From Sipunculus nudus (taxonomy: Eukaryota; Annelida; Sipuncula; Golfingiida; Sipunculidae): 64,000 nucleotides of DNA. The position numbers and the translations under genes were made by a program. Numbering within the stretch: position 1 is the stretch's first letter; every line of letters begins with the position of its first letter. Shown in pieces: positions 20,148 through 64,000 of this stretch. The stretch spans positions 16,025,676-16,089,675 of the forward strand of contig CM049311.1 in NCBI GenBank assembly GCA_026874595.1, in the 5' to 3' direction. The notes beneath the pieces were generated by a model. The model had not been told where the DNA came from and searched no databases. It saw nothing but the letters and a program-made list of their open reading frames with translations.

Positions 20148-20193
20148 ATGAATTTGTGGGGCGTATTCATTGTGTGGTACATTCAGACACAAG
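20148..20193 (+). CDS. Exon 1: start codon and signal peptide
   Basis: ATG at 20148 encodes MNLWGVFIVWYIQTQ plus the first base of a split codon, which the next exon completes to Ala. The hydrophobic core LWGVFIVWYI and the TQA end fit a short signal peptide with cleavage after the Ala, just before VWSRR. The donor is gtttgt (20194), weaker than gtaagt but with G at +5. An acceptor-like tttcccttgcag ends at 20124, so a 5' untranslated exon may begin at 20125. The chain fits only if this exon ends in phase 1, which it does. Confidence 0.6.
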
Positions 20194-26100: not shown

Positions 26101-29100
26101 TTCCTTTTAAAATTCGAGACAGGTGCCGTAAATGTCCTCTTCTAGTAGATTTTTTTCTTTTATACGTTTATGTTTCATTTGGCCGATTTCTCAATAATTC
26201 TAACATTTGCATCAGGAGTGCCCCTTTCTCCTTCGAGGCTGATTTTGGTAACATAATGGTAAGAAAGCATGACAAGATCGTCCTGTGGAATTTATAGTAT
26301 GTTTAACGTGAGATTATCATGCATTATGTTCTCGGTGGCCTGAATGATCTCTGCAATCCACTACAAAATATTTAATGTTTCAATGAAATGTAGTGAAAGT
26401 ATTGTTTGAAAACACTGGTCCTTCTGTAGTTTTTCCTCGCGAGTTGCTAGTAAACTATTAATGGATGGGAACGCTTACGAGCACTAAAAGGGGAACCGCT
26501 GGTTGTAAGGGCTGAATATTCTGTTCAGTGGAATGAGAAAGCAAAGGCAATTTGAGATATCATTTCTAGTAATAACCGGTTGGCACTTTGTTTAATTAAA
26601 CATGTTTTTATGTATATTTTTCTTCAGTGGCCCCACCGACCACTTCGCCCCCCTCCGTGTCTCCAACTCTAGCACCAAGTGGTAAGCAATATACTTTGGT
26701 TATTAAGCTTTAGTGAATCACTCTTTGATTCATGTAAATGCAAATCTATCGGGTTTGTGCCGTATCTAGGAATATTCAGCATGTAGCGTGCAATTGGCCC
26801 AAAACAATTCAAATCTCGCTCTTTTCTTAAAAAGTTCCTCTTAATGCAGATATTATGTTTGTTAAGTATTCTTTTTTAAATAACGAAAAGGGAAGGACAT
26901 GGATGTTATAATCGTACAGAGCCTGTTTTTTTTAAGATCGGTGCACTTGAAATATTATAGGTCAATGCATTCATTTAGCAAACAGGGGGAACTAATGAAT
27001 TCTTTAATAAGAATAATTATTGGTTCTTGAAATGTCAGTGTAATGTGCTTTTCATTTCTTTCATTAAGATCATCAATAAATCATTTTGTGCATGTGGCAT
27101 AGCTAATAAAAAAATGGAACATAGTTTCGAAATAGAACAAATCTAGTGCTTTACGTTCCTTGGTTTGAAATGGTCCTTAATGTGTTACGCTGATATTTTA
27201 TTTGGAGCACACTTACTTAACCAGCCCAAAATAGCAAATGAGGAGGGCTGGCAAGTTTTCGGTGTTTTCGGTCTCTATCTAATCAGAGCTTTATAAATCC
27301 ATTTGGACTTGAAATGTAGATGGTTTCTTCTTTCGTCTAGCAGGGAAAGTGAAAGGCGGAATTTTGTTCTTTGACAACTTATCGGTACATCCATTTAGAG
27401 GGTATGATGTCGTTTTTTGTTTAATTTCTGATATCTTAAAGTATTGTTTGAATGTGGAAAAAATATGTAATTAACATAAATTGCATCTTTCTAATTCGCG
27501 ACACGTATCGTCGTTGTGCTCCATTAGGTGACGTTTTTCTATGCTCAGCTGACCATGAGTCGTCTGAAGTAAGACTGTGGGGCTATTTACATTTTCTAAA
27601 TGTTTCCACATTTTTATTGTATTTTTGTACTCAGAAATTACGGCTTCCCAAGAGTTAACAGTATACAAATCGTAACAGCTTGAACAAGAAACTTTTTTTT
27701 ACCAATAATTAGGTTGGTTCTATGTAAATCTCTATGCTTATTAAAAATAAGACAACTGTGCCCTATGCAATTTAAAGTTTGGTGATTCTGCTTAATCACT
27801 GACTGGCATTCCCTCAAAGATTCACGACGCGTATCGTCGCTGTGCTCTTTAAGCAGACGTTTTTAAGCTCATCTGACCATAAGTCATCTGACCGTCTGTC
27901 CAGGTGTCTGTCTCTCCATGCCATAACAAGTCTTAAACATCGACCATTTGACCTAAAATCTTCTCACTTTACATATAGGTCAATTCCTGGAATATAAACC
28001 TAGACATCTACAAAATAGTTCACTATGACCTATATTTGGATGGTACCTGTGTATCTGGGTGATTTGGCACTTAGAAGTCAGACGTATGCTCTGGGCTGCC
28101 AGCCATACAGTGTGCACTCAATCTTAAAAAAAATATACATTCTGCATAAACTGCACATATAGCATTGTTTCCGCCCTGCCGGTTCTTCAAAACTGTTGTG
28201 GATACAATGATTTATTAAAATGTTTTAAGCTTTTTATAGATGGAATTCATATTCAAGAAATATATCTGAGTAAGTAACGGTTTGATCCTCCTGAAATTAA
28301 GAAAGCCAATTGATCATGGATAGACCAACAAGCTGAGGAATAATGTGGCGTTATCTACATTTTCTGAATGTTTCAACATTTTATTGTATTTTTTGTAGTC
28401 CGAAATTACGGCTGGCCAGGGGTTAATTAGGCAAAAATCGAATTCGCTTGAACTGGGAACGGGTTTTTAAATATCCATGTTGGTCCTTGGTAAATCTCTG
28501 TGCTTCTTAAAAATTAGGCCACTGTGCCCTATGCATTATCAGGTCGTGTGGTTTTTAATTTAGATCTCTATTATTTTTATATTACAGATTGTTTAAAGCA
28601 TCTGTGCGTCATGACTCACGGGTCACTTGTTCTCTTGTATGATTATGTTTAATGTAGCTGAATTGTCGATAATTAAACCATTTGCCAACAGGATTAGAGG
28701 AGTAGAGTTTGGTAAGGTAATGGTAAGAAAGCGTGAAATGGTGGTGAGGCGGATTCTTGTGGCTGCGATAAATTGGATAAACATGCATTTTATGCTTACT
28801 GGCCTGCCTGGTCTCTGTAATTCATTACAAAATATTTAACGTTTCAATGAAATGTTGTGAAAAGTATTATTTGGTAACACTGGTCTTGCTAAAGATTTTT
28901 TAAACGCGAGTTGGCAGTAAACTTAATGAATGTCTACGGTAATGAGCACGAAAAGGGGAACCAAACAAAGCAACTAAACAATTCTGGCAAATCAGAAATA
29001 CAAGTTCTATTAGTAACTAGTTGGCATTGTATTCAATTAAACATGTTTTCATGTATCTTATTCTTCAGTGGCTCCGACGACCCCAGCGGCCGCAGTCGCG

Positions 29101-32100
29101 TCTTCAACTCCAGCACCATCTGGTAAGCAAGATACTAGTCGTGTTAGCTCTAGTAAATCACTCTCTAATTCATGTCAATGCAAAAAGATCGGGTTTTCCC
29201 ACGATATAGGAAGGTTTAGCATGCAGTGTGCAATTGTTCTTAAACAAAGCAATTCTGGCACTTTTCGATTCTATTATTAAAAGCTCTTTCCTTTTATAAG
29301 CAGATATTATGTCTGTAAAGATTCCTTGCTTAAAACCTTCTATTCTTCTTCATGTAGATAATGTAATTGTTAAGTTATTTTTTTTAAATGAACGAAAAGG
29401 AGAGGTTATTGAAGTTATGATGATACAGAAACTGCTTATTTGTAGTTCTTTGCATCTGAAATAGGACATGTTTATGCTTTGATTAATCAATCAGACGGAA
29501 TAAATGAATTCTTTTAAAATGATTAATTATTGGTTTCTTCAATTTTAAATGTCAATGTTATATTCTTTTCAATTCTTTCACATGAAGATCATAGAAATTC
29601 GATTGTGTGCATGTGGAATAGCTTCTGAAACAATGGAACATTTAAATAGTTTCAAAATCAACAAATATGATGCGTTACGACACTGGGTTTAAAACGACCC
29701 TTTCTGTGTCGGACGGATATTATTTTTGGAGCCAATTATTTGGCCAGCCCAAAGAATATGCTCTGAGCTTGCTGAAGGTTCTTTTCCAAGCGAGTTGCCA
29801 CAAACTTTTAATGGATGACTACGCTAACGACCAATCAAAGCTGAATCTCAAGTCGAAATGGCTGAATATTCTATTCATAAGAAGGAGAAAGCAAGGGGAG
29901 TCAGAAATTTAAGTTGTATTAATAACTGGTTGGCACTGTGTTCAATTAAACATGTTTTCATGTATATCATTCTTCAGTGGCCCCAACGACCCCACCGGCC
30001 GCCGTCACGTCTCCAACACCAGCACCAACTGGTAAGCAAGATACTAGGCGTGTTAGCCCTAGTAAATCACTCTCTAATTCATGTCAATGCAAAAAGATCG
30101 GGTTTTCCCACGATATAGGAAGGTTTAGTATGCAGTGTGCAATTGTTCCTAAACAAAGCAATTCTGGCTCTTTTCGATTCTATTATTCAAAGCTCTTTCC
30201 TTACATAAGCAGATATTATGTCTGTAAAGATTCCTTGCTTAAAACCTTCTATCCTTCTTCATGCAGATAATGTAATTGTAAAGTTATTTTTATTAAATGA
30301 ACGAAAAGGAGAGGTTATTGAAGTTATGATGATACAGAAACTGCTTATTTGTAGTTCTTTGCACTTGAAATAGGACATGTTTATGCTTTCATTAATCAAT
30401 CAGACGGAATAAATGAATTCTTTTAAAATGATTAATTATTGGTTTCTTCAATTTTAAATGTCAATGTTATATTCTTTTCAATTCTTTCACATGAAGATCA
30501 TAGATATTCGATTGTGTGCATGTGGAATAGCTTCTGAAACAATGGAACATTTAAATAGTTTCAAAATCAACAAATATGATGCGTTACGACACTGGGTTTA
30601 AAACGACCCTTTCTGCGTCGGACGGATATTATTTTTGGAGCCAATTATTTGGTCAGCCCAAAGCATATGCTCTGGGCATGCTGAAGGTTCTTTTCTAATC
30701 GAATTGCCACAAACTTTTAATGGCTGACTACGTTAACGACCAATCAAAGCGGAATCTCAGGTCGAAATGGCTGAATATTCTATTCATAAGAAGGAGAAAG
30801 CAAAGGGAGTCAGAAATATAAGTTGTATTAATAACTGGTTGGCACTGTGTTCAATTAAACATGTTTTTATGTATATCATTCTTCAGTGGCCCCAACGACC
30901 AAACCGGCCGCCCTCACGTCTCCAACACCAGCACCAACTGGTAAGCAAGATACTAGTCGTGGTAGCCCTAGTAAATCACTCTCTAATTCATGTCAATGCA
31001 AAAAGATCGGGTTTTCCCACGATATAGGAAGGCTTAGTATGCAGTGTGCAATTGTTCTTAAACAAAGCAATTCTGGCACTTTTCGATTCTATTATTAAAA
31101 GCTCTTTCCTTTTATAAGCAGATATTATGTCTGTAAAGATTCCTTGCTTAAAACCTTCTTTTCTTCTTCATGCAGATAATGTAATTGTTAAGTTATTTTT
31201 TTTAAATGAACGAAAAGGAGAGGTTATTGAAGTTATGATGATACAGAAACTGCTTATTTGTAGTTCTTTGCATCTGAAATAGGACATGTTTATGCTTTGA
31301 TTAATCAATCGGACTGAATAAATGAATTCTTTTAAAATGATTAATTATTGGTATCTTCAATTTTTAATGTCAATGTTATATTCTTTTCAATTCGTTCACA
31401 TGAAGATCATAGATATTCGATTGTGTGCATGTGGAATAGCTTCTGAAACAATGGAACATTTAAATAGTTTCAAAATCAACAAATATGATGCGTTACGACA
31501 CTGGGTTTAAAACGACCCTTTCTGTGTCGGACGGATATTATTTTTGGAGCCAATTATTTGGTCAGCCCAAAGCATATGCTCTGGGCATGCTGAAGGTTCT
31601 TTTCCAATCGAGTTGCAACAAACTTTTAATGGCTGACTACGCTAACGACCAATCAAAGCGGAATCTCAGGTCGAAATGGCTGAATATTCTATTCATAAGA
31701 AGGAGAAAGCAAGGGGAGTCAGAAATATAAGTTGTATTAATAACTGGTTGGCACTGTGTTCAATTAAACATGTTTTCATGTATATCATTCTTCAGTGGCC
31801 CCAACGACCCCACCGGCCGCCGTCACGACTCCAACACCAGCACCAACTGGTAAGCAAGATACTAGGCGTGTTAGCCCTAGTAAATCACTCTCTAATTCAT
31901 GTCAATGCAAAAAGATCGGGTTTTCCCACGATATAGGAAGGTTTAGTATGCAGTGTGCAATTGTTCTTAAACAAAGCAATTCTGGCTCTTTTCGATTCTA
32001 TTATTGAAAGCTCTTTCCTTTTATAAGCAGATATTATGTCTGTAAAGATTCCTTGCTTAAAACCTTCTATCCTTCTTCATGCAGATAATGTAATTGTAAA

Positions 32101-35100
32101 GTTATTTTTTTTTTAAATGAACAAAAAGGAGAGGTTATTGAAGTTATGATGATACAGAAACTGCTTATTTTTAGTTCTTTGCACTTGAAATAGGACATGT
32201 TTATGCTTTCATTAATCAATCAGACGGAATAAATGAATTCTTTTAAAATGATTAATTATTGGTTTCTTCAATTTTAAATGTCAATGTTATATTCTTTTCA
32301 ATTCTTTCACATGAAGATCATAGAAATTCGATTGTGTGCATGTGGAATAGCTTCTGAAACAATGGAACATTCAAATAGTTTCAAAATCAACAAATATGAT
32401 GCGTTACGACACTGGGTTTAAAACAACCCTTTCTGTGTCGGACGGATATTATTTTTGGAGCCAATTATTTTGCCAGCCCAAAGCATATGCTCTGGGCTTG
32501 CTGAATGTTCTTTTCCAAGAGAGTGCCACAAACTTTTAATGGCTGACTACGCTAACGACCAATCAAAGCGGAATCTCAGGTCGAAATGGCTGAATATTCT
32601 ATTCATAAGAAGGAGAGAGCAAGGGGAGTCAGAAATATAAGTTGTATTAATAACTGGTTGGCACTGTGTTCAATTAAACATGTTTTCAAGTATATCATTC
32701 TTCAGTGGCCCCAACGACCCCACCGGCCGCCGTCACGTCTCCAATACCAGCACCAACTGGTAAGCAAGATACTAGGCGTGGTAGCCCTAGTAAATCACTC
32801 TCTAATTCATGTCAATGCAAAAAGATCGGGTTTTCCCACGATATAGGAAGGTTTAGCATGCAGTGTGCAATTGTTCTTAAACAAAGCAATTCTGGCACTT
32901 TTCGATTCTATTATTAAAAGCTCTTTCCTTTTATAAGCAGATATTATGTCTGTAAAGATTCCTTGCTTAAAACCTTCTATTCTTCTTCATGCAGATAATG
33001 TAATTGTTAAGTTATTTTTTTTAAATGAACGAAAAGGAGAGGTTATTGAAGTTATGATGATACAGAAACTGCTTATTTGTAGTTCTTTGCACTTGAAATA
33101 GGACATGTTTATGCTTTCATTAATCAATCAGACGGAATAAATGAATTCTTTTAAAATGATTAATTATTGGTTTCTTCAATTTTAAATGTCAATGTTATAT
33201 TCTTTTCAATTCTTTCACATGAAGATCATAGATATTCGATTGTGTGCATGTGGAATAGCTTCTGAAACAATGGAACATTTAAATAGTTTCAAAATCAACA
33301 AATATGATGCGTTACGACACTGGGTTTAAAACGACCCTTTCTGCGTCGGACGGATATTATTTTTGGAGCCAATTATTTGGTCAGCCCAAAGCATATGCTC
33401 TGGGCATGCTGAAGGTTCTTTTCTAATCGAATTGCCACAAACTTTTAATGGCTGACTACGTTAACGACCAATCAAAGCGGAATCTCAGGTCGAAATGGCT
33501 GAATATTCTATTCATAAGAAGGAGAAAGCAAAGGGAGTCAGAAATATAAGTTGTATTAATAACTGGTTGGCACTGTGTTCAATTAAACATGTTTTTATGT
33601 ATATCATTCTTCAGTGGCCCCAACGACCAAACCGGCCGCCCTCACGTCTCCAACACCAGCACCAACTGGTAAGCAAGATACTAGTCGTGGTAGCCCTAGT
33701 AAATCACTCTCTAATTCATGTCAATGCAAAAAGATCGGGTTTTCCCACGATATAGGAAGGTTTAGTATGCAGTGTGCAATTGTTCTTAAACAAAGCAATT
33801 CTGGCACTTTTCGATTCTATTATTAAAAGCTCTTTCCTTTTATAAGCAGATATTATGTCTGTAAAGATTCCTTGCTTAAAACCTTCTTTTCTTCTTCATG
33901 CAGATAATGTAATTGTTAAGTTATTTTTTTTAAATGAACGAAAAGGAGAGGTTATTGAAGTTATGATGATACAGAAACTGCTTATTTGTAGTTCTTTGCA
34001 TCTGAAATAGGACATGTTTATGCTTTGATTAATCAATCGGACTGAATAAATGAATTCTTTTAAAATGATTAATTATTGGTATCTTCAATTTTTAATGTCA
34101 ATGTTATATTCTTTTCAATTCTTTCACATGAAGATCATAGATATTCGATTGTGTGCATGTGGAATAGATTCTGAAACAATGGAACATTTAAATAGTTTCA
34201 AAATCAACAAATATGATGCGTTACGACACTGGGTTTAAAACGACCCTTTCTGTGTCGGACGGATATTATTTTTGGAGCCAATTATTTGGTCAGCCCAAAG
34301 CATATGCTCTGGGCATGCTGAAGGTTCTTTTCCAATCGAGTTGCAACAAACTTTTAATGGCTGACTACGCTAACGACCAATCAAAGCGGAATCTCAGGTC
34401 GAAATGGCTGAATATTCTATTCATAAGAAGGAGAAAGCAAGGGGAGTCAGAAATTTAAGTTGTATTAATAACTGGTTGGCACTGTGTTCAATTAAACATG
34501 TTTTCATGTATATCATTCTTCAGTGGCCCAGACGACCCCACCGGCCGCCGTCACGACTCCAACACCAGCACCAACTGGTAAGCAAGATACTAGGCGTGTT
34601 AGCCCTAGTAAATCACTCTCTAATTCATGTCAATGCAAAAAGATCGGGTTTTCCCACGATATAGGAAGGTTTAGTATGCAGTGTGCAATTGTTCTTAAAC
34701 AAAGCAATTCTGGCTCTTTTCGATTCTATTATTGAAAGCTCTTTCCTTTTATAAGCAGATATTATGTCTGTAAAGATTCCTTGCTTAAAACCTTCTATCC
34801 TTCTTCATGCAGATAATGTAATTGTAAAGTTATTTTTTTTTTTAAATGAACAAAAAGGAGAGGTTATTGAAGTTATGATGATACAGAAACTGCTTATTTG
34901 TAGTTCTTTGCACTTGAAATAGGACATGTTTATGCTTTCATTAATCAATCAGACGGAATAAATGAATTCTTTTAAAATGATTAATTATTGGTTTCTTCAA
35001 TTATAAATGTCAATGTTATATTCTTTTCAATTCTTTCACATGAAGATCATAGAAATTCGATTGTGTGCATGTGGAATAGCTTCTGAAACAATGGAACATT

Positions 35101-53100: not shown

Positions 53101-56100
53101 AATCAATCAGACGGAATAAATGAATTCTTTTAAAATGATTTATTATTGGTTTCTTCAATTTTAAATGTCAATGTTATATTCTTTTCAATTCTTTCACATG
53201 AAGATCATAGAAATTCGATTGTGTGCATGTGGAATAGCTTCTGAAACAATGGAACATTTAAATAGTTTCAAAATCAACAAATATGATGCGTTACGACACT
53301 GGGTTTAAAACGACCCTTTCTGCGTCGGACGGATATTATTTTTGGAGCCAATTATTTGGTCAGCCCAAAGCATATGCTCTGGGCATGCTGAAGGTTCTTT
53401 TCTAATCGAATTGCCACAAACTTTTAATGGCTGACTACGTTAACGACCAATCAAAGCGGAATCTCAGGTCGAAATGGCTGAATATTCTATTCATAAGAAG
53501 GAGAAAGCAAAGGGAGTCAGAAATATAAGTTGTATTAATAACTGGTTGGCACTGTGTTCAATTAAACATGTTTTCATGTATATCATTCTTCAGTGGCCCC
53601 AACGACCCCACCGGCCGCCGTCACGACTACAACACCAGCACCAACTGGTAAGCAAGATACTAGGCGTGGTAGCCCTAGTAAACTCTCTTATTCATGTCAA
53701 TGCAAAAAGATCGGGTTTTCCCACGATATAGGAAGGTTTAGTATGCACGGGGCAATTGTTCTTAAACAAAGCAATTCTGGCACTTTTCGATTCTATTATT
53801 AAAAGCTCTTTCCTTTAATAAGCAGATATTATGTCTGTAAAGATTCCTTGCTTAAAACCTTCTTTTCTTCTTCATGCAGATAATGTAATTGTTAAGTTAT
53901 TTTTTTTAAATGAACGAAAAGGAGAGGTTATTGAAGTTATGATGATACAGAAACTGCTTATTTGTAGTTCTTTGCATCTGAAATAGGACATGTTTATGCT
54001 TTGATTAATCAATCAGACGGAATAAATGAATTCTTTTAAAATGATTTATTATTGGTTTCTTCAATTTTAAATGTCAATGTTATATTCTTTTCAATTCTTT
54101 CACATGAAGATCATAGAAATTCGATTGTGTGCATGTGGAATAGCTTCTGAAACAATGGAACATTTAAATAGTTTCAAAATCAACAAATATGATGCGTTAC
54201 GACACTGGGTTTAAAACGACCCTTTCTGCGTCGGACGGATATTATTTTTGGAGCCAATTATTTGGTCAGCCCAAAGCATATGCTCTGGGCATGCTGAAGG
54301 TTCTTTTCTAATCGAATTGCCACAAACTTTTAATGGCTGACTACGTTAACGACCAATCAAAGCGGAATCTCAGGTTGAAATGGCTGAATATTCTATTCAT
54401 AAGAAGGAGAAAGCAAAGGGAGTCAGAAATATAAGTTGTATTAATAACTGGTTGGCACTGTGTTCAATTAAACATGTTTTCATGTATATCATTCTTCAGT
54501 GGCCCCAACGACCCAACCGGCCGCCGTCACGACTACAACACCAGCACCAACTGGTAAGCAAGATACTAGGCGTGTTAGCCCTAGTAAATCACTCTCTAAT
54601 TCATGTCAATGCAAAAAGATCGGGTTTTCCCACGATATAGGAAGGTTTAGTATGCAGTGTGCAATTGTTCCTAAACAAAGCAATTCTGGCTCTTTTCGAT
54701 TCTATTATTCAAAGCTCTTTCCTTTTATAAGCAGATATTATGTCTGTAGAGATTCCTTGCTTAAAACCTTCTATCCTTCTTCATGCAGATAATGTAATTG
54801 TAAAGTTATTTTTTTTTTAAATGAACAAAAAGGAGAGGTTATTGAAGTTATGATGATACAGAAACTGCTTATTTTTAATTCTTTGCACTTGAAATAGGAC
54901 ATGTTTATGCTTTCATTAATCAATCAGACGGAATAAATGAATTCTTTTACAATGATTAATTATTGGTTTCTTCAATTTTAAATGTCAATGTTATATTCTT
55001 TTCAATTCTTTCACATGAAGATCATAGAAATTCGATTGTGTGCATGTGGAATAGCTTCTGAAACAATGGAACATTCAAATAGTTTCAAAATCAACAAATA
55101 TGATGCGTTACGACACTGGGTTTAAAACAACCCTTTCTGTGTCGGACGGATATTATTTTTGGAGCCAATTATTTTGCCAGCCCAAAGCATATGCTCTGGG
55201 CTTGCTGAATGTTATTTTCCAAGCGAGTGCCACAAACTTTTAATGGCTGACTACGCTAACGACCAATCAAAGCGGAATCTCAGGTCGAAATGGCTGAATA
55301 TTCTATTCATAAGAAGGAGAGAGCAAGGGGAGTCAGAAATATAAGTTGTATTAATAACTGGTTGGCACTGTGTTCAATTAAACATGTTTTCAAGTATATC
55401 ATTCTTCAGTGGCCCCAACGACCCCACCGGCCGCCGTCACGTCTCCAATACCAGCACCAACTGGTAAGCAAGATACTAGGCGTGGTAGCCCTAGTAAATC
55501 ACTCTCTAATTCATGTCAATGCAAAAAGATCGGGTTTTCCCACGATATAGGAAGGTTTAGTATGCAGTGTGCAATTGTTCTTAAACAATGCAATTCTGGC
55601 TCTTTTCGATTCTATTATTAAAAGCTCTTTCCTTTTATAAGCAGATATTATGTCTGTAAAGATTCCTTGCTTAAAACCTTCTATCCTTCTTCATGCAGAT
55701 AATGTAATTGTAAAGTTATTTTTTTTTAAATGAACGAAAAGGAGAGGTTATTGAAGTTATGATGATACAGAAACTGCTTATTTTTAGTTCTTTGCACTTG
55801 AAAAAGGACATGTTCATGCTTTCATTTATCAATCAGAAGGAATAAATGAATTCTTTTAAAATGATTAAATATTGGTTTCTTCAATTTTAAATGTCAATGT
55901 TATATTATTTTCAATTCTTTCACATGAAGATCATAGAAATTCGATTGTGTGCATGTGGAATAGCTTCGGAAACAATGGAACATTTAAATAGTTTCAAAAT
56001 CAACAAATATGATGCATTACGACATTGGGTTTAAAACGACCCTTTCTGCGTCGGACGGATATTATTTTTGGAGCCAATTATTTGGTCAGCCCAAAGCATA

Positions 56101-59100
56101 TGCTCTGGGCATGCTGAAGGTTCTTTTCCAATCGAGTTGCCACAAACTTTTAATGGCTGACTACGCTAACGACCAATCAAAGCGGAATCTCAGGTCGAAA
56201 TGGCTGAATACTCTATTCATAAGAAGGAGAAAGCAAGGGGAGTCAGAAATATAAGTTGTATTAATAACTGGTTGGCACTGTGTTCAATTAAACATGTTTT
56301 CATGTATATCATTCTTCAGTGGCCCCAACGACCCCACCGGCCGCCGTCACGACTCCAACACCAGCACCAACTGGTAAGCAAGATACTAGGCGTGTTAGCC
56401 CTAGTAAATCACTCTCTAATTCATGTCAATGCAAAAAGATCGGGTTTTCCCACGATATAGGAAGGTTTAGTATGCAGTGTGCAATTGTTCTTAAACAAAG
56501 CAATTCTGGCTCTTTTCGATTCTATTATTGAAAGCTCTTTCCTTTTATAAGCAGATATTATGTCTGTAAAGATTCCTTGCTTAAAACCTTCTATTCTTCT
56601 TCATGCAGATAATGTAATTGTTAAGTTATTTTTTTTAAATGAACGAAAAGGAGAGGTTATTGAAGTTATGATGATACAGAAACTGCTTATTTGTAGTTCT
56701 TTGCACTTGAAATAGGACATAGTTATGCTTTCATTAATCAATCAGACGGAATAAATGAATTCTTTTAAAATGATTAATTATTGGTTTCTTCAATTTTAAA
56801 TGTCAATGTTATATTCTTTTCAATTCTTTCACATGAAGATCATAGATATTCGATTGTGTGCATGTGGAATAGCTTCTGAAACAATGGAACATTTAAATAG
56901 TTTCAAAATCAACAAATATGATGCGTTACGACACTGGGTTTAAAACGACCCTTTCTGCGTCGGACGGATATTATTTTTGGAGCCAATTATTTGGTCAGCC
57001 CAAAGCATATGCTCTGGGCATGCTGAAGGTTCTTTTCTAATCGAATTGCCACAAACTTTTAATGGCTGACTACGTTAACGACCAATCAAAGCGGAATCTC
57101 AGGTCGAAATGGCTGAATATTCTATTCATAAGAAGGAGAAAGCAAAGGGAGTCAGAAATATAAGTTGTATTAATAACTGGTTGGCACTGTGTTCAATTAA
57201 ACATGTTTTTATGTATTTCATTCTTCAGTGGCCCCAACGACCAAACCGGCCGCCCTCACGTCTCCAACACCAGCACCAACTGGTAAGCAAGATACTAGTC
57301 GTGGTAGCCCTAGTAAATCACTCTCTAATTCATGTCAATGCAAAAAGATCGGGTTTTCCCACGATATAGGAAGGTTTAGTATGCAGTGTGCAATTGTTCT
57401 TAAACAAAGCAATTCTGGCACTTTTCGATTCTATTATTAAAAGCTCTTTCCTTTTATAAGCAGATATTATGTCTGTAAAGATTCCTTGCTTAAAACCTTC
57501 TTTTCTTCTTCATGCAGATAATGTAATTGTTAAGTTATTTTTTTTAAATGAACGAAAAGGAGAGGTTATTGAAGTTATGATGATACAGAAACTGCTTATT
57601 TGTAGTTCTTTGCATCTGAAATAGGACATGTTTATGCTTTGATTAATCAATCGGACTGAATAAATGAATTCTTTTAAAATGATTAATTATTGGTATCTTC
57701 AATTTTTAATGTCAATGTTATATTCTTTTCAATTCTTTCACATGAAGATCATAGATATTCGATTGTGTGCATGTGGAATAGCTTCTGAAACAATGGAACA
57801 TTTAAATAGTTTCAAAATCAACAAATATGATGCGTTACGACATTGGGTTTAAAACGACCCTTTCTGTGTCGGACGGATATTATTTTTGGAGCCAATTATT
57901 TGGTCAGCCCAAAGCATATGCTCTGGGCATGCTGAAGGTTCTTTTCCAATCGAGTTGCAACAAACTTTTAATGGCTGACTACGCTAACGACCAATCAAAG
58001 CGGAATCTCAGGTCGAAATGGCTGAATATTCTATTCATAAGAAGGAGAAAGCAAGGGGAGTCAGAAATATAAGTTGTATTAATAACTGGTTGGCACTGTG
58101 TTCAATTAAACATGTTTTCATGTATATCATTCTTCAGTGGCCCAGACGACCCCACCGGCCGCCGTCACGACTCCAACACCAGCACCAACTGGTAAGCAAG
58201 ATACTAGGCGTGTTAGCCCTAGTAAATCACTCTCTAATTCATGTCAATGCAAAAAGATCGGGTTTTCCCACGATATAGGAAGGTTTAGTATGCAGTGTGC
58301 AATTGTTCTTAAACAAAGCAATTCTGGCTCTTTTCGATTCTATTATTGAAAGCTCTTTCCTTTTATAAGCAGATATTATGTCTGTAAAGATTCCTTGCTT
58401 AAAACCTTCTATCCTTCTTCATGCAGATAATGTAATTGTAAAGTTATTTTTTTTTAAGTGAACAAAAAGGAGAGGTTATTGAAGTTATGATGATACAGAA
58501 ACTGCTTATTTTTAGTTCTTTGCACTTGAAATAGGACATGTTTATGCTTTCATTAATCAATCAGACGGAATAAATGAATTCTTTTAAAATGATTAATTAT
58601 TGGTATCTTCAATTTTTAATGTCAATGTTATATTCTTTTCAATTCTTTCACATGAAGATCATAGATATTCGAATGTGTGCATGTGGAATAGCTTCTGAAA
58701 CAATGGAACATTTAAATAGTTTCAAAATCAACAAATATGATGCGTTACGACACTGGGTTTAAAACGACCCTTTCTGTGTCGGACGGATATTATTTTTGGA
58801 GCCAATTATTTGGTCAGCCCAAAGCATATGCTCTGGGCATGCTGAAGGTTCTTTTCCAATCGAGTTGCAACAAACTTTTAATGGCTGACTACGCTAACGA
58901 CCAATCAAAGCGGAATCTCAGGTCGAAATGGCTGAATATTCTATTCATAAGAAGGAGAAAGCAAGGGGAGTCAGAAATATAAGTTGTATTAATAACTGGT
59001 TGGCACTGTGTTCAATTAAACATGTTTTCATGTATATCATTCTTCAGTGGCCCAGACGACCCCACCGGCCGCCGTCACGACTCCAACACCAGCACCAACT

Positions 59101-62100
59101 GGTAAGCAAGATACTAGGCGTGTTAGCCCTAGTAAATCACTCTCTAATTCATGTCAATGCAAAAAGATCGGGTTTTCCCACGATATAGGAAGGTTTAGTA
59201 TGCAGTGTGCAATTGTTCTTAAACAAAGCAATTCTGGCTCTTTTCGATTCTATTATTGAAAGCTCTTTCCTTTTATAAGCAGATATTATGTCTGTAAAGA
59301 TTCCTTGCTTAAAACCTTCTATCCTTCTTCATGCAGATAATGTAATTGTAAAGTTATTTTTTTTTTTAAATGAACAAAAAGGAGAGGTTATTGAAGTTAT
59401 GATGATACAGAAACTGCTTATTTTTAGTTCTTTGCACTTGAAATAGGACATGTTTATGCTTTCATTAATCAATCAGACGGAATAAATGAATTCTTTTAAA
59501 ATGATTAATTATTGGTTTCTTCAATTTTAAATGTCAATGTTATATTCTTTTCAATTCTTTCACATGAAGATCATAGAAATTCGATTGTGTGCATGTGGAA
59601 TAGCTTCTGAAACAATGGAACATTCAAATAGTTTCAAAATCAACAAATATGATGCGTTACGACACTGGGTTTAAAACAACCCTTTCTGTGTCGGACGGAT
59701 ATTATTTTTGGAGCCAATTATTTTGCCAGCCCAAAGCATATGCTCTGGGCTTGCTGAATGTTCTTTTCCAAGCGAGTGCCACAAACTTTTAATGGCTGAC
59801 TACGCTAACGACCAATCAAAGCGGAATCTCAGGTCGAAATGGCTGAATATTCTATTCATAAGAAGGAGAGAGCAAGGGGAGTCAGAAATATAAGTTGTAT
59901 TAATAACTGGTTGGCACTGTGTTCAATTAAACATGTTTTCAAGTATATCATTCTTCAGTGGCCCCAACGACCCCACCGGCCGCCGTCACGTCTCCAATAC
60001 CAGCACCAACTGGTAAGCAAGATACTAGGCGTGGTAGCCCTAGTAAATCACTCTCTAATTCATGTCAATGCAAAAAGATCGGGTTTTCCCACGATATAGG
60101 AAGGTTTAGCATGCAGTGTGCAATTGTTCTTAAACAAAGCAATTCTGGCACTTTTCGATTCTATTATTAAAAGCTCTTTCCTTTTATAAGCAGATATTAT
60201 GTCTGTAAAGATTCCTTGCTTAAAACCTTCTATTCTTCTTCATGCAGATAATGTAATTGTTAAGTTATTTTTTTTTAAATGAACGAAAAGGAGAGGTTAT
60301 TGAAGTTATGATGATACAGAAACTGCTTATTTGTAGTTCTTTGCATCTGAAATAGGACATGTTTATGCTTTGATTAATCAATCAGACGGAATAAATGAAT
60401 TCTTTTAAAATGATTAATTATTGGTTTCTTCAATTTTAAATGTCAATGTTATATTCTTTTCAATTCTTTCACATGAAGATCATAGAAATTCGATTGTGTG
60501 CATGTGGAATAGCTTCTGAAACAATGGAACATTTAAATAGTTTCAAAATCAACAAATATGATGCGTTACGACACTGGGTTTAAAACGACCCTTTCTGTGT
60601 CGGACGGATATTATTTTTGGAGCCAATTATTTGGTCAGCCCAAAGAATATGCTCTGAGCTTGCTGAAGGTTCTTTTCCAAGCGAGTTGCCACAAACTTTT
60701 AATGGATGACTACGCTAACGACCAATCAAAGCTGAATCTCAAGTCGAAATGGCTGAATATTCTATTCATAAGAAGGAGAAAGCAAGGGGAGTCAGAAATT
60801 TAAGTTGTATTAATAACTGGTTGGCACTGTGTTCAATTAAACATGTTTTCATGTATATCATTCTTCAGTGGCCCCAACGACCCCACCGGCCGCCGTCACG
60901 TCTCCAACACCAGCACCAACTGGTAAGCAAGATACTAGGCGTGTTAGCCCTAGTAAATCACTCTCTAATTCATGTCAATGCAAAAAGATCGGGTTTTCCC
61001 ACGATATAGGAAGGTTTAGTATGCAGTGTGCAATTGTTCCTAAACAAAGCAATTCTGCCTCTTTTCGATTCTATTATTCAAAGCTCTTTCCTTTCATAAG
61101 CCGATATTATGTCTGTAAAGATTACTTGCTTAAAACCTTCTATCCTTCTTCATGCAGATAATGTAATTGTAAAGTTATTTTTTTAAATGAACGAAAAGGA
61201 GAGGTTATTGAAGTTATGATGATACAGAAACTGCTTATTTGTAGTTCTTTGCACTTGAAATAGGACATGTTTATGCTTTCATTAATCAATCAGACGGAAT
61301 AAATGAATTCTTTTAAAATGATTAATTATTGGTTTCTTCAATTTTAAATGTCAATGTTATATTCTTTTCAATTCTTTCACATGAAGATCATAGATATTCG
61401 ATTGTGTGCATGTGGAATAGCTTCTGAAACAATGGAACATTTTAATAGTTTCAAAATCAACAAATATGATGCGTTACGACACTGGGTTTAAAACGACCCT
61501 TTCTGCGTCGGACGGATATTATTTTTGGAGCCAATTATTTGGTCAGCCCAAAGCATATGCTCTGGGCATGCTGAATGTTCTTTTCCAAGCGAATTGCCAC
61601 AAACTTTTAATGGCTGACTACGTTAACGACCAATCGAAGCGGAATCTCATGTCGAAATGGCTGAATATTCTATTTATAAGAAGGAGAAAGCAAAGGGAGT
61701 CAGAAATATAAGTTGTATTAATAACTGGTTGGCACTGTGTTCAATTAAACATGTTTTCATGTATATCATTCTTCAGTGGCCCCAACGACCCCACCGGCCG
61801 CCGTCACGTCTCCAACACCAGCACCAACTGGTAAGCAAGATACTAGTCGTGGTAGCCCTAGTAAACTCTCTTATTCATGTCAATGCAAAAAGATCGGGTT
61901 TTCCCACGATATAGGAAGGTTTAGTATGCACGGGGCAATTGTTCTTAAACAAAGCAATTCTGGCACTTTTCGATTCTATTATTAAAAGCTCTTTCCTTTA
62001 ATAAGCAGATATTATGTCTGTAAAGATTCCTTGCTTAAAACCTTCTTTTCTTCTTCATGCAGATAATGTAATTGTTAAGTTATTTTTTTTAAATGAACGA

Positions 62101-64000
62101 AAAGGAGAGGTTATTGAAGTTATGATGATACAGAAACTGCTTATTTGTAGTTCTTTGCATCTGAAATAGGACATGTTTATGCTTTGATTAATCAATCAGA
62201 CGGAATAAATGAATTCTTTTAAAATGATTTATTATTGGTTTCTTCAATTTTAAATGTCAATGTTATATTCTTTTCAATTCTTTCACATGAAGATCATAGA
62301 AATTCGATTGTGTGCATGTGGAATAGCTTCTGAAACAATGGAACATTTAAATAGTTTCAAAATCAACAAATATGATGCGTTACGACACTGGGTTTAAAAC
62401 GACCCTTTCTGCGTCGGACGGATATTATTTTTGGAGCCAATTATTTGGTCAGCCCAAAGCATATGCTCTGGGCATGCTGAAGGTTCTTTTCTAATCGAAT
62501 TGCCACAAACTTTTAATGGCTGACTACGTTAACGACCAATCAAAGCGGAATCTCAGGTCGAAATGGCTGAATATTCTATTCATAAGAAGGAGAAAGCAAA
62601 GGGAGTCAGAAATATAAGTTGTATTAATAACTGGTTGGCACTGTGTTCAATTAAACATGTTTTCATGTATATCATTCTTCAGTGGCCCCAACGACCCCAC
62701 CGGCCGCCGTCACGACTACAACACCAGCACCAACTGGTAAGCAAGATACTAGGCGTGTTAGCCCTAGTAAATCACTCTCTAATTCATGTCAATGCAAAAA
62801 GATCGGGTTTTCCCACGAAATAGGAAGGTTTAGTATGCACGGGGCAATTGTTCTTAAACAAAGCAATTCTGGCACTTTTCGATTCTATTATTAAAAGCTC
62901 TTTCCTTTAATAAGCAGATATTATGTCTGTAAAGATTCCTTGCTTAAAACCTTCTTTTCTTCTTCATGCAGATAATGTAATTGTTAAGTTATTTTTTTTA
63001 AATGAACGAAAAGGAGAGGTTATTGAAGTTATGATGATACAGAAACTGCTTATTTGTAGTTCTTTGCATCTGAAATAGGACATGTTTATGCTTTGATTAA
63101 TCAATCAGACGGAATAAATGAATTCTTTTAAAATGATTTATTATTGGTTTCTTCAATTTTAAATGTCAATGTTATATTCTTTTCAATTCTTTCACATGAA
63201 GATCATAGAAATTCGATTGTGTGCATGTGGAATAGCTTCTGAAACAATGGAACATTTAAATAGTTTCAAAATCAACAAATATGATGCGTTACGACACTGG
63301 GTTTAAAACGACCCTTTCTGCGTCGGACGGATATTATTTTTGGAGCCAATTATTTGGTCAGCCCAAAGCATATGCTCTGGGCATGCTGAAGGTTCTTTTC
63401 TAATCGAATTGCCACAAACTTTTAATGGCTGACTACGTTAACGACCAATCAAAGCGGAATCTCAGGTCGAAATGGCTGAATATTCTATTCATAAGAAGGA
63501 GAAAGCAAAGGGAGTCAGAAATATAAGTTGTATTAATAACTGGTTGGCACTGTGTTCAATTAAACATGTTTTCATGTATATCATTCTTCAGTGGCCCCAA
63601 CGACCCCACCGGCCGCCGTCACGACTACAACACCAGCACCAACTGGTAAGCAAGATACTAGGCGTGTTAGCCCTAGTAAATCACTCTCTAATTCATGTCA
63701 ATGCAAAAAGATCGGGTTTTCCCACGATATAGGAAGGTTTAGTATGCAGTGTGCAATTGTTCCTAAACAAAGCAATTCTGGCTCTTTTCGATTCTATTAT
63801 TCAAAGCTCTTTCCTTTAATAAGCAGATATTATGTCTGTAAAGATTCCTTGCTTAAAACCTTCTTTTCTTCTTCATGCAGATAATGTAATTGTTAAGTTA
63901 TTTTTTTTAAATGAACGAAAAGGAGAGGTTATTGAAGTTATGATGATACAGAAACTGCTTATTTGTAGTTCTTTGCATCTGAAATAGGACATGTTTATGC
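20148..64000 (+). CDS. Secreted mucin-like Pro/Thr/Ser-rich protein, multi-exon gene (partial at 3' end)
   Basis: This gene model was assembled from splice sites and reading phase: signal-peptide exon (20148-20193), linker exon (21132-21176), Gly/Ser-rich exon (24563-24643), and 40 tandem 54-bp exons from 26628 to 63645, continuing past the edge. All introns are phase 1, so codons split across every joint and each cassette begins with a Val formed by G plus TG. The visible product is about 777 residues, about 93% of it an 18-residue Pro/Thr/Ala/Ser repeat with no Cys and almost no charge. Such composition is typical of mucin-type O-glycosylated, extended regions. The exons are about two-thirds GC while the introns are about one-third GC. 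The product is probably exported into mucus, matrix, shell or adhesive material. The exact role, any C-terminal domain and the polyadenylation site lie outside the window. Alternative reading: a satellite array that happens to contain an exon-like motif. The matching upstream exons and the constant GT/AG sites argue against this. Confidence 0.8.
21132..21176 (+). CDS. Exon 2: short charged/aromatic segment
   Basis: A 45-bp phase 1-1 exon between the acceptor tttttttgcag and the donor gtaagt. It encodes VWSRRLFEPDYDFF after the split Ala, and ends with A, which joins TG of exon 3 to give Met. The RR and the acidic/aromatic EPDYDFF make it unlike the rest of the protein. It would be the mature N-terminus, or a propeptide if cut after RR. 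Intron 1 is 938 bp and intron 2 is 3386 bp. Confidence 0.65.
22405..22818 (+). mobile_element. tRNA-derived SINE, copy 2 (in intron 2)
   Basis: Same family and orientation as the copy at 19221. Both start accggcttct, share ggactcaaagcc, a gccgagg-cggtgag block, a ttcctcggtgt block, a ggacc/gacgc-gcaggt-cggt block and the ending gataagt-agcatt-aaaatat-gg-ttacctcca. The A and B boxes are decayed here, so this copy is older or less constrained. It lies inside intron 2 of the mucin-like gene. Confidence 0.8.
22819..24562. other. Remainder of intron 2, no further exon recognised
   Basis: I looked for other phase 1-1 exons with paired acceptor and donor here and saw none I would defend. Small open frames are present but unsupported. 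Confidence 0.4.
24563..24643 (+). CDS. Exon 3: Gly/Ser-rich segment
   Basis: An 81-bp phase 1-1 exon between ttctattttag and gtaagtg. It encodes YGRGLASGGSGSFGSGG followed by SGLGGSGSS, built from GGSG(S/L/F) steps. The other two frames hit stops (TAG) within the exon, so the phase is fixed. Gly/Ser runs of this type serve as flexible linkers and also occur in silk-like, byssal and shell-matrix proteins. Here it links the N-terminus to the Pro/Thr repeat. Confidence 0.8.
25126..25431 (-). CDS. Possible nested gene fragment in intron 3, unrecognised protein
   Basis: An uninterrupted 101-codon minus-strand frame whose composition stands out from the AT-rich surroundings. It contains WSLLKPKTTEEDRFGLEQQL, RKWERQKGTVTAEG and VWEKWLDSGFKKTRLQKWGF, so it is rich in Lys, Glu, Gln and Trp like a real helical protein. 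No domain is recognised. No splice sites were confirmed, and the frame lies antisense inside the intron between exons 3 and 4. It could be a retroposed exon fragment, a single exon of a nested gene, or chance. The frame opens ATG-ATA-AAC and ends at TAA. Confidence 0.35.
   Translation of the reverse strand: MINKTPVFNRDWSLLKPKTTEEDRFGLEQQLRKWERQKGTVTAEGLSSMDITTSVWEKWLDSGFKKTRLQKWGFADKCFVSSCTDGTRVKDTKRLMTIHKF
26628..26681 (+). CDS. Exon 4: founder-like PTS cassette
   Basis: 54 bp, phase 1-1, acceptor ttcttcag and donor gtaagc. It encodes VAPPTTSPPSVSPTLAPS, the most diverged of all cassettes (Leu and extra Pro/Ser). Its following intron is 2387 bp, against about 855 bp in the array. Up to about 27240 that intron aligns with the 909-bp unit, and then it carries extra sequence. 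Confidence 0.85.
27245..28905 (+). repeat. Extra intron segment absent from the 909-bp units, with an internal duplication
   Basis: The intron after exon 4 matches the array unit up to about 27240 (ccagcccaaa) and again from about 28905 (gcgagttggcagtaaac). The intervening segment of about 1.6 kb is missing from array units. Its right part (from about 28700, ggtaatggtaagaaagc) matches sequence upstream of exon 4 at about 26255-26450, so the long form is probably ancestral. Inside, blocks at 27495-27790 recur at about 27825-27890 and 28340-28550 (tatcgtcg-tgtgctc; gaaattacggct; ggtaaatctctgtgctt). This could be a small repeat element copied within the intron. Confidence 0.65.
29069..29122 (+). 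CDS. Exon 5: PTS cassette, unit 1
   Basis: Encodes VAPTTPAAAVASSTPAPS. It is intermediate between exon 4 and the young cassettes: Ala replaces Pro at residue 7 and it ends Ser-Ser-Thr. It is the first unit with a short (855-bp) intron, so it marks the left edge of the homogeneous array. Confidence 0.9.
29978..30031 (+). CDS. Exon 6: PTS cassette, unit 2 (type S)
   Basis: Encodes VAPTTPPAAVTSPTPAPT, the canonical 18-mer. Intron after it 855 bp. Confidence 0.9.
30887..30940 (+). CDS. Exon 7: PTS cassette, unit 3 (type K)
   Basis: Encodes VAPTTKPAALTSPTPAPT. The Lys is one of very few charged residues in the array, and V10 is Leu. Intron after it 855 bp. Confidence 0.9.
31796..31849 (+). CDS. 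Exon 8: PTS cassette, unit 4 (type P)
   Basis: Encodes VAPTTPPAAVTTPTPAPT (Ser12 to Thr). Intron after it 856 bp. Confidence 0.9.
32706..32759 (+). CDS. Exon 9: PTS cassette, unit 5 (type I)
   Basis: Encodes VAPTTPPAAVTSPIPAPT; Thr14 is Ile, removing one potential glycosylation site. Intron after it 855 bp. Confidence 0.9.
33615..33668 (+). CDS. Exon 10: PTS cassette, unit 6 (type K)
   Basis: Same exon as unit 3, with Lys6 and Leu10. The right half of its intron carries the cggactg variant and a private A at 34168, which later mark the duplication joint near 44 kb. Confidence 0.9.
34524..34577 (+). CDS. Exon 11: PTS cassette, unit 7 (type Q)
   Basis: Encodes VAQTTPPAAVTTPTPAPT; Pro3 to Gln through two adjacent base changes. 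First unit of the higher-order block. Intron after it 857 bp with a longer T run. Confidence 0.9.
35435..35488 (+). CDS. Exon 12: PTS cassette, unit 8 (type I)
   Basis: VAPTTPPAAVTSPIPAPT. Intron after it 855 bp. Confidence 0.9.
36344..36397 (+). CDS. Exon 13: PTS cassette, unit 9 (type S)
   Basis: VAPTTPPAAVTSPTPAPT. Intron after it 855 bp with the private motif 'ttctgcctctttt'. Confidence 0.9.
37253..37306 (+). CDS. Exon 14: PTS cassette, unit 10 (type S')
   Basis: VAPTTPPAAVTSPTPAPT. Its intron (852 bp) carries the 3-bp loss and the atgcacgggg variant. Confidence 0.9.
38159..38212 (+). CDS. Exon 15: PTS cassette, unit 11 (type T)
   Basis: VAPTTPPAAVTTTTPAPT, the Thr-richest cassette (seven Thr in 18). 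Intron after it 852 bp. Confidence 0.9.
39065..39118 (+). CDS. Exon 16: PTS cassette, unit 12 (type Q), variant donor
   Basis: VAQTTPPAAVTTPTPAPT. Unlike every other array exon its donor reads gtaaac rather than gtaagc. Skipping it would keep the frame. Confidence 0.88.
39119..39124 (+). promoter_or_regulatory. Weakened 5' splice site (gtaaac)
   Basis: G to A at the fifth intron base (39123), a position normally paired with U1 snRNA. All other array donors read gtaagc, including the duplicate at 49107. This unit may be skipped more often. Confidence 0.8.
39976..40029 (+). CDS. Exon 17: PTS cassette, unit 13 (type I)
   Basis: VAPTTPPAAVTSPIPAPT. Intron after it 855 bp. Confidence 0.9.
40885..40938 (+). 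CDS. Exon 18: PTS cassette, unit 14 (type S)
   Basis: VAPTTPPAAVTSPTPAPT. Intron after it 855 bp. Confidence 0.9.
41794..41847 (+). CDS. Exon 19: PTS cassette, unit 15 (type S', Pro6 to Ser)
   Basis: Encodes VAPTTSPAAVTSPTPAPT. The CCA to TCA change is private to this unit; its 9,988-bp partner (unit 26) keeps Pro, so it arose after the duplication. Intron after it 852 bp. Confidence 0.9.
42700..42753 (+). CDS. Exon 20: PTS cassette, unit 16 (type T)
   Basis: VAPTTPPAAVTTTTPAPT. Intron after it 852 bp. Confidence 0.9.
43606..43659 (+). CDS. Exon 21: PTS cassette, unit 17 (type T), last of the first higher-order block
   Basis: VAPTTPPAAVTTTTPAPT. Its intron is chimeric: the left part is T-type and the right part is the K-to-Q intron type otherwise seen after unit 6. 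Confidence 0.9.
43830..44026 (+). other. Unequal-crossover joint between the two 9,988-bp blocks
   Basis: Left of 43830 the intron has T-type marks (aaactctcttattc, atgcacgggg, ctttaataagc). From 44027 it has K-type marks (cggactg, ggtatcttcaatttttaatg). The private A shared by 34168 and 44156 lies exactly 9,988 bp apart. The exchange therefore fell in this interval, where the two unit types are identical. Confidence 0.85.
44512..44565 (+). CDS. Exon 22: PTS cassette, unit 18 (type Q)
   Basis: VAQTTPPAAVTTPTPAPT. Partner of unit 7. Intron after it 857 bp. Confidence 0.9.
45423..45476 (+). CDS. Exon 23: PTS cassette, unit 19 (type I)
   Basis: VAPTTPPAAVTSPIPAPT. Partner of unit 8. Intron after it 855 bp. 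Confidence 0.9.
46332..46385 (+). CDS. Exon 24: PTS cassette, unit 20 (type S)
   Basis: VAPTTPPAAVTSPTPAPT. Partner of unit 9. Intron after it 855 bp. Confidence 0.9.
47241..47294 (+). CDS. Exon 25: PTS cassette, unit 21 (type S')
   Basis: VAPTTPPAAVTSPTPAPT. Partner of unit 10. Its intron (852 bp) carries the ggagg variant at 47883. Confidence 0.9.
48147..48200 (+). CDS. Exon 26: PTS cassette, unit 22 (type T)
   Basis: VAPTTPPAAVTTTTPAPT. Partner of unit 11. Its intron shares the ggagg variant (48789) with the preceding unit. Confidence 0.9.
49053..49106 (+). CDS. Exon 27: PTS cassette, unit 23 (type Q)
   Basis: VAQTTPPAAVTTPTPAPT. Partner of unit 12 but with the normal gtaagc donor. Intron after it 857 bp. 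Confidence 0.9.
49964..50017 (+). CDS. Exon 28: PTS cassette, unit 24 (type I)
   Basis: VAPTTPPAAVTSPIPAPT. Partner of unit 13. Intron after it 855 bp. Confidence 0.9.
50873..50926 (+). CDS. Exon 29: PTS cassette, unit 25 (type S)
   Basis: VAPTTPPAAVTSPTPAPT. Partner of unit 14. Intron after it 855 bp, with a private C to T at about 51002. Confidence 0.9.
51782..51835 (+). CDS. Exon 30: PTS cassette, unit 26 (type S')
   Basis: VAPTTPPAAVTSPTPAPT. Partner of unit 15 but keeps Pro6. Intron after it 852 bp. Confidence 0.9.
52688..52741 (+). CDS. Exon 31: PTS cassette, unit 27 (type T)
   Basis: VAPTTPPAAVTTTTPAPT. Partner of unit 16. Intron after it 852 bp. Confidence 0.9.
53594..53647 (+). 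CDS. Exon 32: PTS cassette, unit 28 (type T)
   Basis: VAPTTPPAAVTTTTPAPT. Partner of unit 17. Its intron is T-type throughout, unlike the chimeric intron of unit 17, so it shows the parental state. Confidence 0.9.
54500..54553 (+). CDS. Exon 33: PTS cassette, unit 29 (type T*, Pro6 to Gln)
   Basis: Encodes VAPTTQPAAVTTTTPAPT, the only CAA at this position. Its intron (856 bp) returns to the long form with atcactctctaattc. Confidence 0.9.
55410..55463 (+). CDS. Exon 34: PTS cassette, unit 30 (type I)
   Basis: VAPTTPPAAVTSPIPAPT. Its intron (856 bp) has several private changes (gaaaaaggacatgttcatg, tcagaagg), making it one of the more diverged young introns. Confidence 0.9.
56320..56373 (+). 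CDS. Exon 35: PTS cassette, unit 31 (type P)
   Basis: VAPTTPPAAVTTPTPAPT, otherwise seen only in unit 4. Intron after it 855 bp. Confidence 0.9.
57229..57282 (+). CDS. Exon 36: PTS cassette, unit 32 (type K)
   Basis: VAPTTKPAALTSPTPAPT. Its acceptor region reads tatttcattcttcag, one base different from the rest. Intron after it 855 bp. Confidence 0.9.
58138..58191 (+). CDS. Exon 37: PTS cassette, unit 33 (type Q)
   Basis: VAQTTPPAAVTTPTPAPT. Followed directly by a second Q unit, the only Q-Q pair in the array. Intron after it 856 bp. Confidence 0.9.
59048..59101 (+). CDS. Exon 38: PTS cassette, unit 34 (type Q)
   Basis: VAQTTPPAAVTTPTPAPT. Probably a recent single-unit duplication of unit 33. 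Intron after it 857 bp. Confidence 0.9.
59959..60012 (+). CDS. Exon 39: PTS cassette, unit 35 (type I)
   Basis: VAPTTPPAAVTSPIPAPT. Intron after it 856 bp. Starts another I S S' T run like those of the higher-order blocks. Confidence 0.9.
60869..60922 (+). CDS. Exon 40: PTS cassette, unit 36 (type S)
   Basis: VAPTTPPAAVTSPTPAPT. Intron after it 854 bp, with the shortest T run in the array. Confidence 0.9.
61777..61830 (+). CDS. Exon 41: PTS cassette, unit 37 (type S')
   Basis: VAPTTPPAAVTSPTPAPT. Intron after it 852 bp. Confidence 0.9.
62683..62736 (+). CDS. Exon 42: PTS cassette, unit 38 (type T)
   Basis: VAPTTPPAAVTTTTPAPT. Its intron (855 bp) is mixed: the left part is long-form (atcactctctaattc), then the atgcacgggg mark of the short form, suggesting conversion. 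Confidence 0.9.
63592..63645 (+). CDS. Exon 43: PTS cassette, unit 39 (type T), last exon in window
   Basis: VAPTTPPAAVTTTTPAPT with donor gtaagc. Its intron runs off the right edge still in register with the array, so further units are expected. Confidence 0.9.

Follow-up and report, generated by a model that had tools for sequence, protein, structure and literature searches.

We analyzed a 64,000-nucleotide stretch of the Sipunculus nudus genome (hereafter, the window; G000:C6:16,025,676-16,089,675, within a 1.43-Gb assembly) that carries, between positions 26628 and 63645, 40 short cassettes with the form of separate exons of a proline- and threonine-rich, mucin-like protein. The cassette sites were located by an ungapped scan with a 62-base cassette model that includes the splice-site bases, using a cut-off of at least 40 of 62 matches. 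The 40 sites score 49–62, and we reject a chance origin because the next-best site in the 64 kb scores 31. Every cassette is exactly 54 bp long, stop-free and in phase 1-1, with CAG before it and a GT donor after it (GTAAG in 39, GTAAA in one). Their spacing is 906–911 bp, except for 2,441 bp between the first and the second. Three putative exons lie upstream (Table 1), and, judged by eye, the predicted exons include a putative secretion signal, MNLWGVFIVWYIQTQA. Joined in silico, these three exons and the 40 cassettes form an open frame of 777 codons, to which the cassettes contribute 720 residues.

The original prediction, made from the DNA letters, had described at least 40 cassettes of 54 bp and 18 residues each, 720 spliced residues with constant phase 1-1 joints, and junctions joining G to TG. 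Its coordinates, count, phase and junction all agree with the window scan and the in silico joining. It understated the size of the array, which continues past the window and is followed by a second one (see below). We infer that the cassettes are spliced exons from three features of the sequence, namely the splice signals, the reading frame and conservation among related cassettes.

Table 1. Putative exons and higher-order repeat blocks, in window coordinates
Feature	Position	Strand	Details	Basis
putative first coding exon, signal-peptide-like MNLWGVFIVWYIQTQ	20148..20193	+	ends phase 1; weak donor GTTTGT	by eye
putative exon 2 (AVWSRRLFEPDYDFF)	21132..21176	+	phase 1-1; GCAG acceptor, GTAAGT donor, frame continuous	by eye
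putative exon 3, Gly/Ser-rich (MYGRGLASGGSGSFGSGGSGLGGSGSS)	24563..24643	+	phase 1-1; TTAG acceptor, GTAAGT donor	by eye
cassette exon 1 (VAPPTTSPPSVSPTLAPS)	26628..26681	+	most diverged of window cassettes	cassette-model scan
cassette exon 2 (VAPTTPAAAVASSTPAPS)	29069..29122	+		cassette-model scan
cassette exon 3	29978..30031	+	reference type VAPTTPPAAVTSPTPAPT	cassette-model scan
cassette exon 4	30887..30940	+		cassette-model scan
cassette exon 5	31796..31849	+		cassette-model scan
cassette exon 6	32706..32759	+		cassette-model scan
cassette exon 7	33615..33668	+		cassette-model scan
cassette exon 8	34524..34577	+		cassette-model scan
cassette exon 9	35435..35488	+		cassette-model scan
cassette exon 10	36344..36397	+		cassette-model scan
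cassette exon 11	37253..37306	+		cassette-model scan
cassette exon 12	38159..38212	+		cassette-model scan
cassette exon 13	39065..39118	+	sole GTAAA donor in window	cassette-model scan
cassette exon 14	39976..40029	+		cassette-model scan
cassette exon 15	40885..40938	+		cassette-model scan
cassette exon 16	41794..41847	+		cassette-model scan
cassette exon 17	42700..42753	+		cassette-model scan
cassette exon 18	43606..43659	+		cassette-model scan
cassette exon 19	44512..44565	+		cassette-model scan
cassette exon 20	45423..45476	+		cassette-model scan
cassette exon 21	46332..46385	+		cassette-model scan
cassette exon 22	47241..47294	+		cassette-model scan
cassette exon 23	48147..48200	+		cassette-model scan
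cassette exon 24	49053..49106	+		cassette-model scan
cassette exon 25	49964..50017	+		cassette-model scan
cassette exon 26	50873..50926	+		cassette-model scan
cassette exon 27	51782..51835	+		cassette-model scan
cassette exon 28	52688..52741	+		cassette-model scan
cassette exon 29	53594..53647	+		cassette-model scan
cassette exon 30	54500..54553	+		cassette-model scan
cassette exon 31	55410..55463	+		cassette-model scan
cassette exon 32	56320..56373	+		cassette-model scan
cassette exon 33	57229..57282	+		cassette-model scan
cassette exon 34	58138..58191	+		cassette-model scan
cassette exon 35	59048..59101	+		cassette-model scan
cassette exon 36	59959..60012	+		cassette-model scan
cassette exon 37	60869..60922	+		cassette-model scan
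cassette exon 38	61777..61830	+		cassette-model scan
cassette exon 39	62683..62736	+		cassette-model scan
cassette exon 40	63592..63645	+	window's last	cassette-model scan
higher-order repeat block 1	34524..44511	+	11 units, 9,988 bp	unit alignment, block comparison
higher-order repeat block 2	44512..54499	+	11 units, 9,988 bp	9,966/9,988 identical to block 1

The 720 cassette residues are 30.3% P, 29.9% T, 22.2% A, 10.7% V and 4.0% S. According to the portion of the literature cited here, mucin PTS domains are repeated and have at least 20–25% Ser+Thr and at least 5% Pro (PMC2515642), and the cassettes exceed both values. The description of the domain as mucin-like thus stands on composition; its status as exons depends on the splice signals, the frame and conservation in relatives. 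All but two mucins are said, in the cited part of another report, to have a VWD or SEA domain (PMC1552070). A Pfam search at E up to 1 gave no match to the N-terminus plus five cassettes, or to a string of cassettes from the second array. At the sequence level, all 40 repeats in the window occupy their own predicted exon with duplicated introns. A transposon or dispersed repeat as the unit is rejected, as a 91-base cassette query matches the C6 locus only (40 scored of 76 candidates). At the gathering score Rfam matches nothing in the window, and there is no row of tandem repeats (periods up to 500) at 28–64 kb. Within the limited literature covered, we found no published report of the locus and no paper with the peptide PTTTPATT.

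The window end cuts through this first array. Cassettes 41–62 follow in the sequence beyond, bringing the total to 62, none with a stop. Of the acceptors, 61 are CAG and one is CAA; the donor is GT in 58, GC in three and lost in one; CAG and GT are both present in 57. The departures (the CAA acceptor, the three GC donors and the lost donor) belong to decaying cassettes near the 3' edge, and the most diverged cassettes of the array are found at both of its edges.

From 16,134 kb a second array begins, on the same strand and in the same phase as the first, consisting of 60-bp PTS cassettes in phase 1-1. Each is made of two decapeptides, e.g., VAPTTTPATTVAPTTTPATT, which are VAPTTTPATT-like, and the cassette types contain 45–50% S+T and 20% P, again above the PTS threshold. 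Two 33-base core patterns, the first allowed up to one mismatch and the second up to two, match 49 and 74 places, respectively, at 16,137–16,301 kb. The array size is therefore given as at least 123 core matches, with splice sites checked for part of these. A list of 296 cassette rows contains nested duplicates and had been chosen by frame, and it is left out of this count. Half-cassettes recur inside array-2 units at C6:16143316, 16147415, 16157495 and 16295348, keeping the second decapeptide and the donor, with no acceptor in register. Past the end of the array, at C6:16317373-16321158, we noted by eye the remains of a retroelement, with gag-like, integrase-like and reverse-transcriptase-like frames. 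Further cassettes of the family are found at C6:16,396-16,574 kb, C6:19.1 Mb and C2:93.4-93.9 Mb.

The first array is built of exon-intron units of ~909 bp that are nearly identical to one another. Across the 54 aligned units (u02–u55; u56, 2,184 bp long, was dropped, and units 1 and 57–62 were left unaligned), mean pairwise identity is 0.969 (96.9%), with a minimum of 0.945 and 12 pairs that are fully identical. By distance between units, identity peaks at lags of 5, 11 and 16, and units grouped at 99.5% identity follow one another in the order F-G-H-I-I, F-G-H-I-I-J and so on. The two 11-unit blocks of Table 1 differ at 22 sites with no gap (99.78% identity), and when five-unit blocks are compared, in four comparisons, 4,536 or 4,538 of 4,541 sites are identical. 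Since the introns are as alike as the exons and the units form higher-order repeats, duplication of exon plus intron, as the original prediction had it, is well supported. The unit likeness and the higher-order repeats point to repeated unequal crossing-over, singly and in blocks, of which they are the expected pattern. The repeat probably grew in blocks of 5, 6 and 11 units as well as one unit at a time. As the higher-order repeats would record recent block duplications, length differences between individuals are to be expected and should be measurable.

The count of 62 relies on the assembly, and repeat blocks of 9,988 bp at 99.78% identity, along with 12 pairs of identical units, make correct assembly difficult. 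Copy number could therefore be inflated or collapsed. We regard this as unlikely, given that the blocks carry distinct variants and that the units least like the others are those at the edges.

A further question is whether the cassettes are coding. Within the first array, the exon is no more conserved than the intron (pi of 0.046 versus 0.029). The 22 exon variants exceed the number expected from the intron spectrum (14.9), and they divide into 8 synonymous and 14 nonsynonymous versus 4.4 and 10.5 expected (p 0.49). As this variation fits neutrality, purifying selection is not apparent in the recent copies. Such a result is what one would expect if a satellite-like tandem repeat had captured one mucin exon, with most copies dead or skipped and only the edge cassettes ever spliced; units that behave as higher-order satellite repeats and splice sites broken in some copies fit that account too. 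Against it, CAG and GT are kept in 57 of the 62 cassettes (the others having CAG with GC in three, CAA with GT in one and a lost donor in one).

The relatives of the 60-bp cassette bear on the same question. Using homology to a 29-base core alone, we collected 83 clusters, with the DNA fetched to that point; shuffling 154 kb of sequence gives no match to this core at up to 8 mismatches. The acceptor is in register in 75 clusters, the donor in 78 and both in 72, leaving 11 with one or both missing. All 72 clusters with both splice sites in register are stop-free, and they encode 33 distinct peptides. Because splice sites were sought in the expected register only, being in frame largely follows from the search; being stop-free does not. 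The exon measures 60 bp in 70 of the 72, 90 bp in one and 30 bp in one, where the 30-bp value takes an internal CAG and the exon reads 57 bp from the letters.

Among 15 representatives (105 pairs), exon identity is 0.779 versus 0.651 and 0.633 for the two 150-base flanks, and 0.605 for a shuffled flank. In the 24 pairs for which both flanks fall below 0.62, the exons agree at 0.757 and the flanks at 0.599 and 0.581; as this subset was chosen for poor flanks, we place weight on all 105 pairs and on the core scan. The representatives are themselves biased, three having been picked by a splice-demanding pattern and most others from lists filtered by frame and by splice-like ends, so that the scan of 83 clusters weighs more than the pairwise identities. 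That 72 of the 83 clusters retain both splice sites in register, and that exons are more alike than flanks among relatives, speaks against a captured satellite, which we consider quite unlikely. On these comparisons, what is kept over time is the cassette form with its splice signals, while individual residues can vary almost freely in new copies. Such freedom is usual for PTS repeats.

Our favored reading, which we hold to be probable, is that the window covers the 5' portion of a large gene for a secreted, mucin-like protein, with an exon-per-repeat PTS domain grown by unequal crossing-over. A signal-peptide-like exon and a Gly/Ser exon would lead into the PTS domain, in which a separate 54-bp phase 1-1 exon encodes each 18-residue repeat, and unequal recombination between the near-identical ~909-bp units would lengthen that domain. 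Each cassette has 3n bases and phase 1-1 ends, a symmetry that preserves the frame whenever cassettes are gained, lost or skipped and leaves domain length free to change. The 60-bp array probably belongs to the transcript of the 54-bp array. The product may be an extended rod or a mucus component, and would probably be O-glycosylated.

Several separate mucin genes might instead lie in tandem on C6, at 16.05–16.57 Mb, with the two arrays belonging to different genes. A VVTTVxTTP exon preceded by a TTQATT-type exon forms an end motif, which is present both at 16,305-16,306 kb and at 16,398-16,399 kb, suggesting at least two gene ends on the contig. Between the arrays, at 16,119-16,134 kb, we saw nothing resembling a first or last exon in the lists of frames (as distinct from a proper search for starts and ends), and strand and phase agree between the two arrays. 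A division of the arrays between genes appears possible to us, if somewhat doubtful. We also put forward, tentatively and with less than even confidence, a stronger form of the single-gene reading. One transcription unit of at least ~254 kb would splice at least 185 symmetric exons, nearly identical and of two kinds, into a mucin stalk. Unequal crossing-over (between individuals) and exon skipping (within individuals) would together determine the variable length of the stalk, and other members of the family would bear C-type lectin heads.

The lectin link comes from a paralogue on C2. There, a contiguous 30-kb stretch holds, on the minus strand, four 60-bp cassettes followed by a 27-bp VVTTVITTP exon, the two halves of a C-type lectin domain (CTLD; PF00059, E 9.2e-5) and a stop. 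Boundaries read in the last three exons are in phase 1; one of the four cassettes has no donor and another has GTAAC. As these cassettes lead into a C-terminal CTLD, the ancestral role was probably that of a long lectin-bearing stalk. The link depends on this one contiguous gene; elsewhere on C2, CTLD exons and cassettes occur as separate matches that share strand and region. For the gene of the window, the corresponding exon, VVTTVVTTP, lies at 16,306 kb. CTLD scans and a comparison of gene ends found no lectin exon or C-terminal domain for this gene at 16,306-16,354 kb, and no CTLD lies at C6:16.0-16.6 Mb among the matches listed. Likewise, the second gene on C6 has no CTLD in the 25 kb past its VVTTVITTP exon, and the 4.8 kb of sequence retrieved upstream of a CTLD gene at C6:17,400-17,405 kb holds no cassette. 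The genome is very rich in CTLDs (a first look gave 2,756 Lectin_C candidates for PF00059, of which 150 were scored), so neighborhood to cassettes is by itself weak evidence. Many of the scored Lectin_C matches, spread over many contigs, have nearly equal scores and open frames of ~360–382 aa; these are perhaps carried by a mobile element.

The same assembly also appears to contain bacterial sequence. In a COX1 search, 10 of 11 matches fell on contigs C60-C123, where the standard code leaves their frames open. Nine are matches to haem-copper oxidase subunit I with near-equal scores, on the unplaced contigs C60, C61, C62, C66, C72, C74, C75 and C89 (two). For one such match compared with GTDB, the best 80 listed relatives are at most 58% identical. 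Given the near-equal copies and this low identity, the sequenced material seems to have included, besides the host, a little-known bacterium in several copies or strains. By eye, a ccoNOP-like bacterial oxidase operon is present at C123:8000-12999, on a 112-kb contig, and apparently represents a second bacterium.

How does this locus compare with known genes? The original prediction called the architecture unusual, which holds in degree (scale, higher-order repeats, two cassette types); the design itself is known from chicken Muc13, SmPoMuc and spider Flag. In chicken Muc13, as described in the cited part of the report, each 20-residue PTS repeat has its own near-identical exon, with at least 12 repeats, and the authors suggest that length is controlled by splicing (PMC1552070). 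The window gene is similar in having one exon per PTS repeat, and the 20-aa repeat of Muc13 equals the length of the 60-bp cassettes. Unlike that account of Muc13 and its at least 12 repeats, the locus has at least 123 core matches in addition to its 62 cassettes, and the SEA and transmembrane domains of Muc13 were not found here. SmPoMuc of Schistosoma mansoni, according to the section cited, repeats a genomic unit of ~1 kb that contains an exon of 27 bp, with up to 20 copies per gene and concerted evolution (PMC2576457). Shared with it are a short exon tandemly duplicated with its introns (SmPoMuc units being >93% identical) and a mucin family of several loci. The SmPoMuc exon is 27 bp versus 54 bp here, and the cited text describes repeats separated by imperfect microsatellites and an intronic hammerhead ribozyme, whereas the window has neither a tandem-repeat row at 28–64 kb nor an Rfam match at gathering score; on these grounds we reject membership in the SmPoMuc family proper. 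The spider silk genes Flag and Argiope MaSp2 have iterated exons with near-identical introns, read in the cited portion as homogenized by intragenic recombination (PMC1885213). The iteration of exons and introns is alike, but these are silk rather than PTS repeats, in a different protein. With respect to C-type lectins (PF00059), the C2 paralogue has cassettes upstream of a two-exon CTLD, and the window gene is one for which no CTLD was found in the sequence retrieved or in the listed matches.

If expressed, the gene would be an extreme natural test of spliceosome register over dozens of near-identical introns, and of the growth of a domain by satellite-like recombination while in frame. The C2 lectin link suggests a family of stalked lectins, which would be of interest for defense, mucus or symbiosis. 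The general exon-per-repeat design has been in print since 2006–2008, and because one-exon-per-repeat mucins such as chicken Muc13 and SmPoMuc are known, the window gene can be viewed as a very large form of a known design. What sets it apart is the copy number, the higher-order repeats, the two successive cassette types on one strand and in one phase, and the link to a lectin family.
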